From a virus: a DNA stretch of 23,731 bases. The stretch spans positions 1-23,731 of IMG/VR virus record IMGVR_UViG_3300047564_000944. One strand, 5' to 3'. Made by a program: the position numbers and the translations under genes. The notes beneath the pieces are model-generated. The model worked only from the letters and a program-made list of their open reading frames with translations, did no database searches and was not told where the DNA came from. Below, piece by piece: positions 3,646 through 23,569 of this stretch (position 1 is the first letter of the stretch; every line of letters starts with the position of its first letter).

Positions 3646-3935
3646 TTTCTGATGAGGATTTTTACCGTTTATTTAATGCGGCTGCTGCTGCTGCCAAGCC
3701 TTATGGAAAACCAGCAATTCCAGCTACTAGCATGGAAGATCGGTTTGAGAACCTTGAGATAGATAGTCTGGATGGCTTGATTATGGGCATGTATCTTTGC
3801 GATGCTTTTGCCGTGTCTGAGGCCGAAGGAAAAGACATGAAGCCTGAAACGGTAGGTGACATGCGAGATTTTCTAGTAAAACACGCAAGAGTTAGTAAAA
3901 TTGATATAGAAAAAGCCATTGAGGTGATGAAATGA
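3642..3935 (+). CDS. Acyl carrier protein-like
   Basis: A 97-residue acidic, helical protein. The segment FENLEIDSLDGLIMGMYLCD (residues 35-54) contains the DSL motif in which Ser42 would receive the 4'-phosphopantetheine arm; the hydrophobic pattern after it matches helix II of acyl carrier proteins. PETVGDMRDFL (about 68-78) matches the conserved helix III/IV stretch TVGD-x-x-D/E-h. It is longer than the usual 77-80 residues, mainly from an N-terminal Ala-rich extension and an insert after helix II. The gene starts at an ATGA overlap and ends in another overlap with the ketosynthase gene, which strongly supports functional pairing. It would need a phosphopantetheinyl transferase; none is visible here, so the host AcpS would be used (inference). 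Confidence 0.85.
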   Translation: MISDEDFYRLFNAAAAAAKPYGKPAIPATSMEDRFENLEIDSLDGLIMGMYLCDAFAVSEAEGKDMKPETVGDMRDFLVKHARVSKIDIEKAIEVMK

Positions 3936-5056
3936 GTCTGTTTCTTACCTTTGGTCATACTGTATCTACAACTCAAACGACCTTGATGGAAGACATTGTG
4001 CATCCACAACGGACGCACTTCATTCCTGAAAGCTATCAAGGCACCAAGCACGGCTACAAATACGCACCGCATAACCTTGCCAACATGGTCTTGGCACCCG
4101 CCACGTTGGAGTGGCTGCGACAAAACCCGGCACTGGGCAAAACTGCATTTATCTTGGCTTCTGGCAACAGTCACTTTGCTGGCATCAATCCAAGAGACAA
4201 TCAAACGAATACGCAACTGCACTACATCTACAAGTTTTTGCCTTTTTCCTTAACGCAAGTAATGGCTGGCAGACTAGCAAACCAGATATGTGAGCCAGAT
4301 TACATTGCTACCGACGCTACCGCTTGCGCGTCCAGCTTAAAAACGCTTATGGACTGCATCATGCTGGAAGCCTTTGGCTATACCCGTTTTATTATCCTAA
4401 CCGTTGAGGATGCCGTCTCTAACTCCGTATTAGAGTTCTTTGGCGATTCTAAAGCTAGCCTGACACTAAAGGAAGAAGGCGACGGAAACGTGCTGCCCAG
4501 TGCGTTTGATCGTAAAAATGGGGGGTTTTACGTCGGGCAAGGCGCTGCTTTTGCCGTCTTGCAATCTGAAGGCGAGGTGAACTTCTACAACCTAAAGCCT
4601 AAAGCCAGATTGGTCAGCGCTTACCATGCTGCCGAAAAGCATACAAACGCCATTGGTCAACGAGAAGATGGTCAGGGCTACATCAAGGCTATTGAAGGTG
4701 CCATATTGTACGGCGATGTCCATGCTGATGATATTTCCATAGTAAAAACACATGGCACCGGTACCGAGTCAAACAATGAGTCAGAGGCAATGGCGCTTTA
4801 CAAGACATTAAATAACTTTATAGCAACATCATTTAAACCAAAAATAGGTCACACAATGGGCGCTTCGGGCTTGCTTGAAACGCTACTTTTGCTTGACAAT
4901 CTAGTTTATGGTGTTGTACCTGCTATCCCTAACCGCACGGAAAAGGACGATGTTTTTCTGTCGCAGGATTGTGAGGTACCCGATGGTTTAATAATGAGTC
5001 TCGCGGCAGGTATGGGCAATGTTTATACCGCTGCGATCTTTGATCCCGTGAGGTAA
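3932..5056 (+). CDS. Beta-ketoacyl-ACP synthase (FabF/FabB-like condensing enzyme)
   Basis: A 374-residue thiolase-fold condensing enzyme. Key residues are present: nucleophile Cys132 in DATACASSLK, His274 in KTHGTGTES, and Lys302/His307 in SFKPKIGHTMGASG, in the order and spacing of FabF-type synthases. The segment PSAFDRKNGGFYVGQGAAF (about 189-207) matches the family's RPFD-x-x-R-x-G-F-h-x-GEGA block. It is about 40 residues shorter than E. coli FabF, chiefly at the N-terminus, and the usual C-terminal N-S-FGFGG loop is replaced by SLAAGMGN, so substrate gating may differ. Cys at the active site argues against a chain-length-factor-like inactive partner. A GAGGTGA site lies just before the ATG, which overlaps the ACP stop. 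The reaction would be decarboxylative condensation of malonyl-ACP with an acyl chain, on the adjacent ACP. Confidence 0.9.
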   Translation: MSLFLTFGHTVSTTQTTLMEDIVHPQRTHFIPESYQGTKHGYKYAPHNLANMVLAPATLEWLRQNPALGKTAFILASGNSHFAGINPRDNQTNTQLHYIYKFLPFSLTQVMAGRLANQICEPDYIATDATACASSLKTLMDCIMLEAFGYTRFIILTVEDAVSNSVLEFFGDSKASLTLKEEGDGNVLPSAFDRKNGGFYVGQGAAFAVLQSEGEVNFYNLKPKARLVSAYHAAEKHTNAIGQREDGQGYIKAIEGAILYGDVHADDISIVKTHGTGTESNNESEAMALYKTLNNFIATSFKPKIGHTMGASGLLETLLLLDNLVYGVVPAIPNRTEKDDVFLSQDCEVPDGLIMSLAAGMGNVYTAAIFDPVR

Positions 5057-16556: not shown

Positions 16557-16584
16557 CCCCGCCATGTCTCCGGCGGGGTTTTTT
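16557..16584 (+). terminator. Intrinsic terminator of the rightward late operon
   Basis: A perfect 7-bp GC stem, CCCCGCC (16557-16563) and GGCGGGG (16572-16578), with an 8-base loop, runs straight into six T. It follows the last + gene and abuts the stop of the leftward unit, so it separates the convergent operons. The T tract exists only for + transcription. Confidence 0.9.
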
Positions 16585-17311
16585 ATTCGCTAGACAATAG
16601 TCCACCCTCAAACAAATACGTTCCCATGTGACCCATTTGGCACCACGGGGCAGCGTAGATCGTGCCGCCAATCTTGCGCCACTCATGGCAGAAATAATAG
16701 TCCTCAGACAATAGCCGCTTAGTATCAGGATCAATAGGATCAAGGTAGAAAGCGTGTATCTCTTGCCCTGCAAGGTGTGTCATATCACTGACGTAAGTGG
16801 GCGTATGCGGCTTTAGCTTCTCAAAGACTTCCCGCTTAACCAACATAAAGCCCGTGCCAATACCAGACACCTCGCAAGGCTTATCCACTGGCACCGTCAT
16901 GGAAGGTTCGGCGTTCAACAGGTTGACCACAAAACTGCCGGTGTGGTTTCTCAGGTTCTCTTTGCCTTCTACCGCTGCCCGCTTAACGGTTTCCCAATTT
17001 ATTTCTTTCTTTGGATAGATTCCGCCTATCACATCTACATCAGCCTCAAGCATTCTCAAGGCATCCTCTGCGCGGAACTTAATGTCAGCGTCAATCCAGA
17101 ACAGGTAGTCTGCATCGCCCTGCAAGAACTGGTGCGCCATATTGCACCGTGCGCGGGTAATCAAGGATTCATTGAACATGAAGGCGCAGGAAGTCTTATA
17201 GCCTTTGCTGCCCAATACGCCGATTAGATTGATCAATGACTGCACGTACACGCCAGTGCATTGCCCGCCATACATAGGTGTTGCGATAAATATATGTTTT
17301 TGCTTGTCCAT
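16583..17311 (-). CDS. Glycosyltransferase, GT-A fold
   Basis: A 242-residue protein started at the ATG 17311 with GGAG five bases upstream; a longer in-frame start (17389) would run into the upstream gene and has no such site. IATPMYGGQCTGVYVQSL opens a nucleotide-sugar-binding Rossmann fold, and DYLFWIDADIKFRAEDAL carries the metal-binding D-x-D (Asp74, Asp76). VIGGIYPKK and GTGFMLVKREVFEKL match family blocks of GT2-like enzymes in phages, and SEDYYFCHEWRK probably holds the catalytic acid. The acceptor is unknown: modified DNA bases, a virion protein or host envelope are all possible. It is the last gene of the leftward recombination unit. Confidence 0.75.
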   Translation of the reverse strand: MDKQKHIFIATPMYGGQCTGVYVQSLINLIGVLGSKGYKTSCAFMFNESLITRARCNMAHQFLQGDADYLFWIDADIKFRAEDALRMLEADVDVIGGIYPKKEINWETVKRAAVEGKENLRNHTGSFVVNLLNAEPSMTVPVDKPCEVSGIGTGFMLVKREVFEKLKPHTPTYVSDMTHLAGQEIHAFYLDPIDPDTKRLLSEDYYFCHEWRKIGGTIYAAPWCQMGHMGTYLFEGGLLSSE

Positions 17312-17326
17312 GTTATCTCCGAAAGT

Positions 17327-17354
17327 GGGGCGTGTTGCAGTAACGCTGCGCCCC
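17327..17354 (-). other. Stem-loop between nuclease and glycosyltransferase genes
   Basis: GGGGCG at 17327-17332 pairs with CGCCCC at 17349-17354; inside the loop GTT at 17334-17336 can pair AAC at 17342-17344. It lies in the gap upstream of the glycosyltransferase. There is no T run, so it is more likely an mRNA processing or stabilising hairpin than a terminator. This is a weak call. Confidence 0.35.
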
Positions 17355-17363
17355 GCAACGCTC

Positions 17364-17723
17364 CTAACTATCCTCGGGAGAGGATTCATCCTGCAACTGA
17401 TGGGGGTCTAGTTCATTACCAAGAAGCGTCAACAGATCGGAGAAGCGCAACAAGGCCAGCGATTTGCCGCCATCCTCGCGCATGACAACCAGCGGTATTT
17501 GTCCTGCTTCACAGGCTTTCTCTGCCTGTTCCACGAAATCATACACGGCTATCTTGCGTCTGCGTTTGCATTCAATGAGATATTTCCCCAAGATCAGATC
17601 GCCCTCATCCTTGACCTGATACTGCTTTAGGTTGCGGCGAATACGAATGCCTAGCTTGTCAAAAATCTCATTGGCTACTTCACGCTCGTAGCTTGCGCCC
17701 CTCTGTCTGTTGAGCTTACTCAT
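17364..17723 (-). CDS. PD-(D/E)XK nuclease, Holliday-junction-resolvase-like
   Basis: A 119-residue protein with the order of active residues expected for the fold: Glu15 in SYEREVANEIF, Asp42 in KDEGDLIL and Glu51-x-Lys53 in YLIECKRRR. The opening S-K-L-N-R-Q-R-G-A-S-Y-E-R-E resembles phage Holliday junction resolvases and small restriction-endonuclease-like nucleases. It probably cuts branched DNA made by the exonuclease-annealing system upstream in the same operon. Its ATG shares one base with the stop of the cysteine-rich peptide gene (TGATG). Confidence 0.75.
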   Translation of the reverse strand: MSKLNRQRGASYEREVANEIFDKLGIRIRRNLKQYQVKDEGDLILGKYLIECKRRRKIAVYDFVEQAEKACEAGQIPLVVMREDGGKSLALLRFSDLLTLLGNELDPHQLQDESSPEDS

Positions 17724-17869
17724 CAGTAACAGTTCGTTTGGCAGTTATTACCGTAGCAACAGGTGGTGCAGCTTACGCAGCGTCCTTGATCGCAATAGGT
17801 GTTGTAAGTACAGGTGGCATAGACAAAAGGCGCGGTCACTGCCAACCAAATAGCGAATAAGTATTTCAT
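17723..17869 (-). CDS. Secreted cysteine-rich micropeptide
   Basis: A 48-residue peptide, ATG at 17869 with GAGGAG six bases before it, stop at 17723-17725 overlapping the nuclease start. Residues 1-18 form a signal peptide (Lys2, then hydrophobic LFAIWLAVTAPFV, cleavage likely after Val-Tyr-Ala). The predicted mature part is about 30 residues and holds eight Cys, at positions 20, 26, 31, 34, 37, 38, 43 and 47, with little else but Thr, Tyr, Asn and Gly. Even number and dense spacing suggest four disulfides formed in the periplasm, or metal binding. I do not recognise a family. Coupled signals on both sides make it likely to be translated. Confidence 0.7.
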   Translation of the reverse strand: MKYLFAIWLAVTAPFVYATCTYNTYCDQGRCVSCTTCCYGNNCQTNCY

Positions 17870-17879
17870 TGCAGTCTCC

Positions 17880-18146
17880 TCAAAAGGGGATTTCGTCATC
17901 GTCCTTACGCTTGGATGGCGTAGGATTCATGTTGCCGCCAACGGGTGGTTGCCAGTTGTCTTCTTTTAAACTGATCAGTACGCCGCCAGTCGTATCCTTA
18001 GTCCATGCGGAGATTTTAAGCGTTTCTCCAATGACATAGTTTCTGCTTACTTTAAGTTCGCCTACCCAATCAGGGTGTGCCGCGCTTTTCTTCTTCCGGT
18101 TTGTGTAAAGAACGCCAGTGCCGGGGTTTCTCTCTTTATATTCCAT
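17880..18146 (-). CDS. SSB-like small protein with acidic DDDEIPF tail
   Basis: An 88-residue protein. GTGVLYTNRKKKSAAHPDWV then a beta-rich part with KISAWTKDTTGGVLISLKED looks like a small single-domain beta barrel, and the end KRKDDDEIPF matches the C-terminal tip of single-stranded-DNA-binding proteins, which recruits partner enzymes. It lacks a full OB-fold signature of canonical SSB. It sits with the annealing protein and exonuclease, fitting a replication or recombination role (inference). It overlaps the upstream HTH gene by 11 bases. Confidence 0.6.
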   Translation of the reverse strand: MEYKERNPGTGVLYTNRKKKSAAHPDWVGELKVSRNYVIGETLKISAWTKDTTGGVLISLKEDNWQPPVGGNMNPTPSKRKDDDEIPF

Positions 18147-19209: not shown

Positions 19210-20103
19210 TCACTTCAAAAGGAATCGACGGGAACCCGGCTGTTCGACAATAAACTTGTCGTACATGTCAGGCATAGAACTGCGGAACAGGTCTTTGCTA
19301 AACGACTTGGTAGCTTTGCTGTTCTTCCAAGTAGCAAGGATTCGACCGTCATAAGTGGATAGCTGCCCTGCTTCCATCATGAAGCCCTGTATCTTGGCTG
19401 TTAGGGCATCTTCTTGTGCTTCTAAGGCTTTGCGCTGCTCTTTGATGATCTTCAGAGTGTCACAGGCTTGCTCTAGCTCTGCGTTGGCCCAGAGGCTTTG
19501 TCCGTTGTCTTCCTTGTAGATGATCTTGGCAGCATCTCCCATTGATTCAGGGTCAAAGTTTCTGGCCTTCACTCGCCCCCAGAACTGTGCCATTTCACGG
19601 GCGTGCATATCCCATTGTTCTTCAGAGAAAGACAGGGGATAGCCGCATATCTCTTGCCCACCAAAGCAGACAATCAGGATGACGTTAGGGATTTGATGCA
19701 CCAAGGATTCATGCAAGCACTGGACACGGTAGCCAACATCAACGTCTGTCGTGCCATCGTCACCATACTTCTTGCGCTGGTGAACACCTAAGTTCTTGAC
19801 CTCATAGAGCGTCTGCCCATCTTCTGAGATGTAATCAAAGTGGCTGGCAAGGAAGGTATGCTTAGGATGATGCAGACTATATGCTGCATCTTTGAACGGT
19901 AGTTCTTTGCGCCTTGCGTATTCGCGCATGATAGGTTCTTGCATAACAAGACCCATCTGCACTGCTTCAATGTCGGAAAGATCGTCTAAAGGTTTTGCGC
20001 CTACCTTTTCGGCATAGACCTCACCGGCTCTGCCTTCGACAAATCGACGCGCATCGTTAGACCATAGTGCGGTGTTCCGCACTTCCGGTGAAAAGTCACT
20101 CAT
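19210..20103 (-). CDS. YqaJ-type viral recombinase exonuclease
   Basis: A 297-residue PD-(D/E)XK exonuclease. Active residues line up as Glu56 in MQEPIMREY, Asp90 in ASHFDYI and Glu101-x-Lys103 in LYEVKNLG, followed by YRVQCLHESLVHQIPN, the Q-x-x-H/x-Q helix typical of the YqaJ/lambda-exo family. The C-terminus from about 220 is a coiled coil (KIIKEQRKALEAQEDALTAK) that may contact the annealing protein. It would resect DNA ends 5' to 3' for strand annealing. GAGGGG lies before the ATG. Confidence 0.85.
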   Translation of the reverse strand: MSDFSPEVRNTALWSNDARRFVEGRAGEVYAEKVGAKPLDDLSDIEAVQMGLVMQEPIMREYARRKELPFKDAAYSLHHPKHTFLASHFDYISEDGQTLYEVKNLGVHQRKKYGDDGTTDVDVGYRVQCLHESLVHQIPNVILIVCFGGQEICGYPLSFSEEQWDMHAREMAQFWGRVKARNFDPESMGDAAKIIYKEDNGQSLWANAELEQACDTLKIIKEQRKALEAQEDALTAKIQGFMMEAGQLSTYDGRILATWKNSKATKSFSKDLFRSSMPDMYDKFIVEQPGSRRFLLK

Positions 20104-22678: not shown

Positions 22679-23569
22679 TCACGCTGCTATTGCTTCGGTT
22701 ATTTGCTCTGATTCGTTGACACTGGTATTTGTCAAATAATCCATTGCTTGCTGCGCCTTTGCACTTGCTGACAAGATAAATTTCTTGTCGTTACGCAATG
22801 CTTTTAGCCACGATTCGATATATCCGGCGTGGCGCAAGTCTCCATCAATGCCGCAATGGGCGCAAAGCATAGCCGCGCCCAATTCGGCTACTAATTCCTC
22901 GAATGCGTATTCTTCAGAGCCGAATCGGGCCGGAGTGATTCTCTTTAGCCGTGAATCATGGCCTGAAGCATGTACGGATTCATGCAATAAAGTCGCATAA
23001 TAATTCTCACGAGAATCGAATGCCGCCATTGCTGGCATGACGATAGCGTCACTACTTGGCCGGAAATAGGCACTATCACCGGCATGCGTTAAGCCGCCAG
23101 AGAGATTCAGACGGGAAACAATGGCATCTGCTTGCTCGCAAGAATTCCAATCTACTTGTGGCGGCTCTGGCATGTCAGGCAGGTTTAATCCTTCGCATTG
23201 CTCTACATTGAAAACGTAGTAGTGCTTGATGAAAGCATAAGCACTGGTAACGGATTCGCCCTTATCGCCGATGGTTTCTTTGCGGTGAACATTCCAATAA
23301 ACAACTGGCGTTCCCTTCTGATCTGCTTTCACTGTACCGCCAAGGCCTTGTGCTTGTTTGAAGGTAACGTAGTGCGGTAAAGCATAGGGCTGCATGCCAA
23401 GCCAAAAGTGATTCACACCACGATATACAGTTCCAGAAGCCGGATTAAATGGCATGCCTTCGCCGGGCATGCCCTTCAAAGTGCGCCAAGGTTTTACCCA
23501 AGGCGTTGCGCCCTTTTCTAGTTCGGAAATAATGCGGTCAGTGATCAGTTGAGCAATGTCTACTTTCAT
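22679..23569 (-). CDS. ardC: ArdC-type antirestriction protein
   Basis: A 296-residue protein with AAGGGG six bases before the ATG. The N-terminal half matches the ArdC ssDNA-binding domain (DUF1738): DRIISELEKGATPWVKPW, FNPASGTVYRGVNHFWL, YVTFKQAQGLGGTVK and KGTPVVYWNV. The C-terminal half is a zinc metallopeptidase with His196-Glu197-x-x-His200 in LLHESVHASGH and a likely third ligand Glu229 in EELVAELGAA. ArdC-like proteins are known from plasmids and phages to protect incoming DNA from restriction. As the gene nearest the putative early promoter it is probably expressed first, consistent with early protection of the phage genome. Confidence 0.9.
   Translation of the reverse strand: MKVDIAQLITDRIISELEKGATPWVKPWRTLKGMPGEGMPFNPASGTVYRGVNHFWLGMQPYALPHYVTFKQAQGLGGTVKADQKGTPVVYWNVHRKETIGDKGESVTSAYAFIKHYYVFNVEQCEGLNLPDMPEPPQVDWNSCEQADAIVSRLNLSGGLTHAGDSAYFRPSSDAIVMPAMAAFDSRENYYATLLHESVHASGHDSRLKRITPARFGSEEYAFEELVAELGAAMLCAHCGIDGDLRHAGYIESWLKALRNDKKFILSASAKAQQAMDYLTNTSVNESEQITEAIAA

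Follow-up and report, generated by a model that had tools for sequence, protein, structure and literature searches.

A conserved family of small, cysteine-rich phage proteins, probably exported, encoded among recombination and replication genes

The window, by which we mean the whole 23,731-base virus record analysed here, carries on its minus strand a 48-codon ORF whose product is MKYLFAIWLAVTAPFVYATCTYNTYCDQGRCVSCTTCCYGNNCQTNCY. The ORF lies at 17869-17723(-), with coding positions 17726..17869 and a stop codon at 17723-17725, and its product divides into a putative signal part and mature part, MKYLFAIWLAVTAPFVYA|TCTYNTYCDQGRCVSCTTCCYGNNCQTNCY, with all eight Cys in the latter. The putative signal peptide (residues 1-18; 17816..17869) has K2, a hydrophobic core and a V-Y-A cut site, and the 30 residues that would remain after cleavage (17726..17815) hold Cys 20, 26, 31, 34, 37, 38, 43 and 47. 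A ribosome-binding site, GAGGAG (17876..17881, minus strand), is located 6 nt 5' of the ATG, where it abuts the stop codon of the ssb-like gene directly upstream (17880..18146, minus strand). The product of that gene ends in the acidic tail DDDEIPF and matches PHROG 18154, single strand DNA binding protein, with E 3.7e-6. At its other end the peptide gene overlaps by one base, stop codon to ATG, a PDDEXK nuclease gene (17364..17723, minus strand; Pfam PF24608, 30.6 bits against a cut-off of 27), which also matches phrog_244 (E 5.2e-21), described there as a RusA-like resolvase. The peptide gene stands in one block with an HTH gene, the SSB-like gene and a YqaJ/RecE-like exonuclease gene (19210..20103, minus strand; phrog_434, E 1.1e-36), all of which we assign to the same early block. 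An earlier note on this DNA had described a tiny secreted peptide at 17723-17869 with a signal peptide, eight Cys, a strong ribosome site and an overlap with a nuclease gene; each of these features is borne out by the sequence, the coordinates are correct, and the strand, which the note left unstated, is minus. A longer start is present at 17899; relatives instead begin at the 48-residue start.

We considered whether so short an ORF might be a chance occurrence. Antisense ORFs occur, and ORFs with at least eight Cys alone appeared in 107/300 shuffles, and are thus not rare; when the window was shuffled by dinucleotides, a signal-like start followed by at least six Cys in an ORF of 30-80 aa turned up in 7/300 cases. 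What decides the matter is conservation. Of 123 stretches matched by an IMG/VR pattern search, 100 encode a relative; in the best 80 of these, without exception, the frame is intact and the number of Cys exactly eight. The earlier note had proposed that relatives be compared for frame, Cys spacing and dN/dS, and in each respect its claim of a real gene stands: Cys spacing is conserved, and median dN/dS in the eight-Cys set is 0.072 (Nei-Gojobori; 282 pairs, 74 different genes), with the mature part held more tightly than the signal peptide (0.059 vs 0.152). For the six-Cys set the corresponding values are 0.196 overall, 0.174 mature and 0.50 signal, and TGT/TGC codon exchange is seen at every Cys position. 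A further 80 loci were drawn by way of the gene for a 268-aa protein two places downstream, so that their selection was independent of the peptide. The family motif is present in 32/80 of these loci. Where identity is 75% or more it is present in 17/18, and the remaining locus starts 36 bases ahead of the 268-aa gene, too near to it for the peptide's place to be judged. Sensitive tblastn matched 32 of the 80 loci, identical to the motif set, and found no degraded copy among the 80. The peptide ORF is a real gene; chance is ruled out by the conserved frame together with dN/dS, and we give it a negligible probability. The 268-aa protein itself (16583-17389, minus strand; phrog_1574) has weak glycosyltransferase-like matches and is common to Caulobacter, Sinorhizobium and Synechococcus phages, occurring in at least 600 IMG/VR stretches.

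A wider pattern, C-x-x-C-C-[YF]-G-x-x-C-x-T-x-C, matches at least 120 IMG/VR stretches, and the ORFs recovered with it fall into two branches, one with eight Cys and one with six; members of the six-Cys branch follow C[ST]THTYxxNGRxVTCTTCCYGxNCxTNC[YF]. With four truncated or short ORFs left out (L116, L129, L132 and L189), the matches listed comprise 198 genes encoding 140 different proteins. The number of Cys among these 140 listed unique proteins is 6 in 70, 7 in 3, 8 in 66 and 9 in 1, where we read the counts of seven and nine as extra Cys within the signal peptide. C26 and C31 occur only as a pair: 67/140 have the two and 73/140 have neither. On a tree in which the trait's own columns were kept, and which was rooted only for drawing, their state changes once, and the pair therefore counts as a single evolutionary event. 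The six-Cys members were obtained mostly through a pattern that requires C34, C37, C38, C43, C47, G40 and T45, so that in most of them only C20, C26 and C31 were free to vary; the loci drawn via the 268-aa gene added the variants CCYNGNC and CCYYGNC, which are invisible to the wider pattern. Judged by its sequence, the window protein is a member of the eight-Cys branch inside a wider six-Cys family. One locus, L069, carries in addition a divergent tandem copy that lies upstream of the peptide gene, at a distance of 231 to 84 bases, with 19/48 residues shared, all eight Cys, its own ribosome site and no clear signal peptide. This copy, which recurs at 100% identity in 14 IMG/VR contigs (L289-L302), is possibly a cytoplasmic counterpart.

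Comparison of 70 members with family libraries gave best E values of 0.0032 in PHROG, 0.02 in Pfam and 0.0033 in NCBIfam, and none in PADLOC; ten members scanned singly against PHROGs gave no E below 0.013. In the PDB, the best sequence match (E 0.097) was to a stretch rich in Cys within an iron-sulfur protein; the family profile had no match. Comparison of folds was similarly unproductive, with a best Foldseek E of 0.69 against the PDB and a best VIA-align 2 Z of 3.7, none being 5 or higher; neither gave a usable match, and neither proves the fold to be new. A 49-aa BFVD/UniProt entry from an uncultured Caudovirales phage, A0A6J5M8Q5, named 'Lipoprotein', shares 49% identity (Foldseek E 5.6e-4) and is very likely a deposited, uncharacterised member of the family. 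Among 50,697 phage records, relatives are found in only two, the uncultured Manatee Spring genomes MW202462.1 and MW202544.1, which carry the same stretch at the same length and of which one is filed as Myoviridae. In both, the peptide gene is uncalled and an antisense ORF is annotated in its place, as the earlier note had anticipated in suggesting that gene finders might overlook it. Plasmids gave no match to the family. Cellular contigs, searched with patterns of the eight-Cys branch only, gave one locus, on a contig of phage origin within an Alphaproteobacteria MAG. A search of cellular genomes gave 1/398 (phylum), 1/385 (class) and 1/142 (order), always that MAG; nothing in these small and overlapping samples suggests that the family belongs to host genes. 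We found no description of the eight- or six-Cys phage family in the open-licence literature, and the part of a review of phage small proteins that we consulted (PMC11323111) holds nothing on periplasmic Cys-rich ones.

The N-terminal part of the protein points to export. A18 and K2 are nearly invariant across 70 diverse members, so that the signal peptide survives the comparison among relatives, and cleavage is predicted after Ala18 from a site read by eye. Among the 140 listed unique proteins the residues from -3 to 0 at the first Cys are WASC in 37, YAAC in 26, YATC in 18, WAAC in 17 and YASC in 16, with other motifs in the remainder. The cut site mostly reads [VATLS]-[WY]-A, an aromatic residue occupies -3 in most members, and the position at -1 to the first Cys is T, N or Q in part of them. 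Set against the consensus motifs for the lipobox and for signal peptidase I, these residues appear to suit signal peptidase I rather than a lipobox. We therefore rejected a lipoprotein, since the -3 to 0 residues at the first Cys in the 140 listed proteins mismatch the lipobox, and the name 'Lipoprotein' given to A0A6J5M8Q5 is not supported when judged by the cut-site pattern of the family rather than by the entry's own sequence. Taken together, the signal-like start, the constancy of A18 and K2 and the constraint on the gene support the claim of an exported Cys-rich phage protein, and Sec-type export is strongly indicated.

An AlphaFold2 model of the window protein, built from 70 rows, has a signal helix followed by strands at 19-27, 30-39 and 42-47 (pLDDT 77, about 85 over the mature part; pTM 0.42). 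A second model, of a six-Cys member built from 53 six-Cys rows only, places strands at 20-28, 31-40 and 43-48 (pLDDT 74, pTM 0.41). The two models, derived from different sets of members, agree in predicting a three-stranded antiparallel meander with middling confidence. Pairs of Cys were read off the strand boundaries rather than from coordinates, with facing positions that sum to 57 across turn 1 and to 81 across turn 2, giving predicted disulfides C20-C37 and C26-C31 in the first hairpin and C34-C47 and C38-C43 in the second. The two-residue turns set all eight Cys (in the six-Cys model all six) opposite each other, with none left over. When the register is fixed, 81/200,000 shuffles of the mature sequence pair all eight Cys; the test with a free register is weaker, in that 855/20,000 shuffles also reach 8/8. 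The AlphaFold prediction may itself draw on the Cys. Between C20 and C47 the family shows 13 length changes, every one of them located in turn 1, the sequence of which is mostly xNGx, xGGx or xQGx. Because C26 and C31, the marker Cys of the eight-Cys branch, would form one predicted cross-strand pair, this branch has apparently added one staple to a scaffold with six Cys, with gain rather than loss as the presumed direction. We also looked for a conserved binding face, and the mean entropies of non-Cys positions compared, 0.90 vs 1.41 bits, do not differ significantly.

This arrangement bears on several suggestions about what the Cys are for. Inhibitor cystine knots are likewise tiny, secreted and rich in Cys, with interlocked I-IV, II-V and III-VI pairing; in contrast, the pairing predicted for the phage peptide is a ladder of cross-strand bonds on a flat sheet, and the 'disulfide-knotted' character raised in the earlier note is not borne out by the inferred register. 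Eight Cys within 30 residues might instead serve metal or thiol chemistry, by binding zinc, copper or iron or by absorbing host disulfide capacity. The divergent tandem copy would suit such a role, as it keeps eight Cys with 19/48 residues matching and, having no obvious signal peptide, might remain in the reducing cytoplasm. However, the Cys positions match cross-strand pairs, C26 and C31 are gained or lost jointly, predicted export favours disulfides and about half of the unique members have only six mature Cys, and we consider this role unlikely. A third possibility is an accessory lysis or antimicrobial peptide. Tachyplesin, protegrin and theta-defensin are beta-hairpin antimicrobial peptides with cross-strand disulfides, and the predicted disulfide ladder and tight-turn hairpins of the phage peptide resemble this known scaffold, through which membranes might be perturbed. 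The present peptide differs in being phage-encoded, three-stranded and near-neutral: the mature charge (K+R-D-E) is 0 in 71, +1 in 67 and +2 in 2 of the 140 listed proteins, and the strong positive charge of the cationic class is absent in 140/140, so that this class was set aside. Toxin-like membrane action is thus disfavoured by the neutral mature part, the gene lies in an early block away from lysis genes, and a lytic or antimicrobial function appears improbable.

The surroundings of the gene were compared across 171 non-redundant loci, that is, the 198 among the matches listed minus 27 with identical flanks. Neighbours are on the same strand upstream in 143/168 loci and downstream in 121/166. 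Clusters of ssb-like, 277-aa, exonuclease or Erf-like genes occur within 4 kb in 129/171, and the window's own ssb-like cluster within that distance in 92/171. Two arrangements recur. In the first, seen in 61/171 loci, the end of a gene encoding an SSB tail lies no more than 250 bp upstream (median gap 11 bp), and the genes involved belong to at least two ssb clusters; in the second, the peptide gene sits between a small HTH gene, often with a 4-base overlap, and a replication gene. At L203, the phage contig in the Alphaproteobacteria MAG, reading of the ORFs places the peptide gene about a dozen bases 3' of a longer SSB of another type. A probe with ssb for further loci gave five, all on contigs already in the set. 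In MW202753.1 (L209:5455-5622) the slot between ssb and nuclease encodes another small, secreted-looking protein, hydrophobic at its start and Cys-bearing at its end, which has no significant match in PHROG and was not found in any other phage record. Scans around the peptide gene gave promoter predictions below the level of shuffles and terminator predictions near it. A cluster whose representative is Rz-like spanin occurs in 10/171 loci, and Gram-negative hosts fit its presence.

The recurring ssb, exonuclease, Erf-like and HTH neighbours support the placement of the gene in an early region, in keeping with the earlier note's idea of export early in infection, and gene order suggests that the peptide itself is expressed early. 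This setting, in which small HTH regulators adjoin in part of the loci, together with a small, exported product near-identical across many phages, would also accommodate a released signal by which phages sense other infections, serving the purpose of arbitrium but in Gram-negative hosts. Such a signal would have to cross the outer membrane, the rigid predicted fold is not that of a linear peptide, and no constant receptor-gene neighbour was noticed, outside any dedicated search, among the 171 listed loci; we think it very unlikely.

Known phage proteins offer closer precedents. T4 Spackle (gp61.3) is described as made early, sent to the periplasm by a signal that is cleaved off, and bearing one disulfide (PMC7677548), and T5 Llp as periplasmic with a C11-C58 disulfide, superinfection proteins being expressed early (PMC9586334). 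By these accounts, small disulfide-bearing periplasmic phage proteins can exclude rivals. The likeness of the phage peptide to Spackle would lie in its early-region neighbours and signal-like N terminus, both read from the genes, and in predicted disulfides; that to T5 Llp/Cor would lie in a small phage protein held by disulfides in the periplasm, where for our family both export and disulfides are predicted. The differences are considerable. Mature Spackle has 75 residues and is alpha-helical, whereas the mature peptide would have 30 and is predicted to be all-beta in both models; a Spackle-like helical bundle was rejected, as both AlphaFold2 models are all-beta after the signal helix, at middling confidence. 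Unlike the Llp/Cor lipoproteins, the peptide shows no lipobox Cys at the mature N terminus and would have no lipid anchor, and it has six to eight Cys, a predicted flat three-stranded sheet and no sequence similarity that we could find. Neither PDB sequence and profile searches nor fold comparison returned relatives of Llp, Cor or Spackle.

In the mechanism that we propose, the early gene would be expressed together with recombination and replication proteins, as gene order suggests, and its 48-residue precursor is strongly indicated to cross the inner membrane by a Sec-type route and to be cut after Ala18. In the oxidising periplasm the 30-residue product is predicted to fold flat, as an antiparallel sheet of three strands joined by two tight turns and kept in register by the four disulfides given above. 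It may then bind an envelope component that is alike across hosts, for example a receptor or another protein of the entry route, and blocking that component would keep a second phage out of the infected cell. That the mature part barely varies suggests a single conserved target, for which a host protein is an easier candidate than the virion of a rival, and a mature dN/dS of 0.059 is unlike an arms race with parts of rival phages. Strong constraint fits equally well a conserved host target that has nothing to do with exclusion. In such a host take-over, the sheet would inhibit or redirect a conserved envelope enzyme early in infection, whether a protease, a nuclease, a cell-wall enzyme or a disulfide enzyme. 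The early gene context agrees with this, as does a mature part that remains near-invariant despite differing neighbours, which is what a conserved host target predicts; against it, the predicted two-residue turns are tight and would expose no canonical inhibitor loop, and we hold enzyme inhibition to be possible but doubtful. Because a conserved host target is suggested, our tentative preference, itself short of an even chance, is an early periplasmic blocker of an entry-route component, acting in superinfection exclusion like T5 Llp or T4 Spackle, with inhibition of an envelope enzyme next. Of the three roles put forward in the earlier note, a block to superinfection, inhibition of an envelope enzyme and stress on the host disulfide machinery, the first would accordingly rank highest.

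How might so small a sheet act as an entry-route blocker? The TonB-box region of outer-membrane receptors normally pairs through TonB's own small sheet. One speculative and rather improbable version is that the stapled sheet pairs edge-on with a strand of a conserved host envelope protein and so closes the cell to other phages; in such a receptor, the plug or the TonB-box region would be an example of a site. If true, the edge-on sheet would be about the smallest rigid beta fold that a phage could export, one design serving many phages and many hosts.

The family is large, strongly conserved and probably exported, and it has been missed by gene finders and is absent from Pfam, PHROG, NCBIfam and PADLOC. 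That the gene recurs in the early region and that its mature part hardly varies suggest that these phages share a step in envelope take-over, and with 30 mature residues the peptide should be simple to synthesise and test. Should it prove to block entry, the peptide would stand out among blockers for its small size and could help to reveal which surface proteins are used by these uncultured phages. Elsewhere in the window, a beta-ketoacyl-synthase-like gene lies at 3932-5056(+) (Pfam Ketoacyl-synt_C, E 6.9e-14; phrog_35856), and 22679-23569(-) encodes an ArdC-type anti-restriction protein with a zincin-like metallopeptidase domain.
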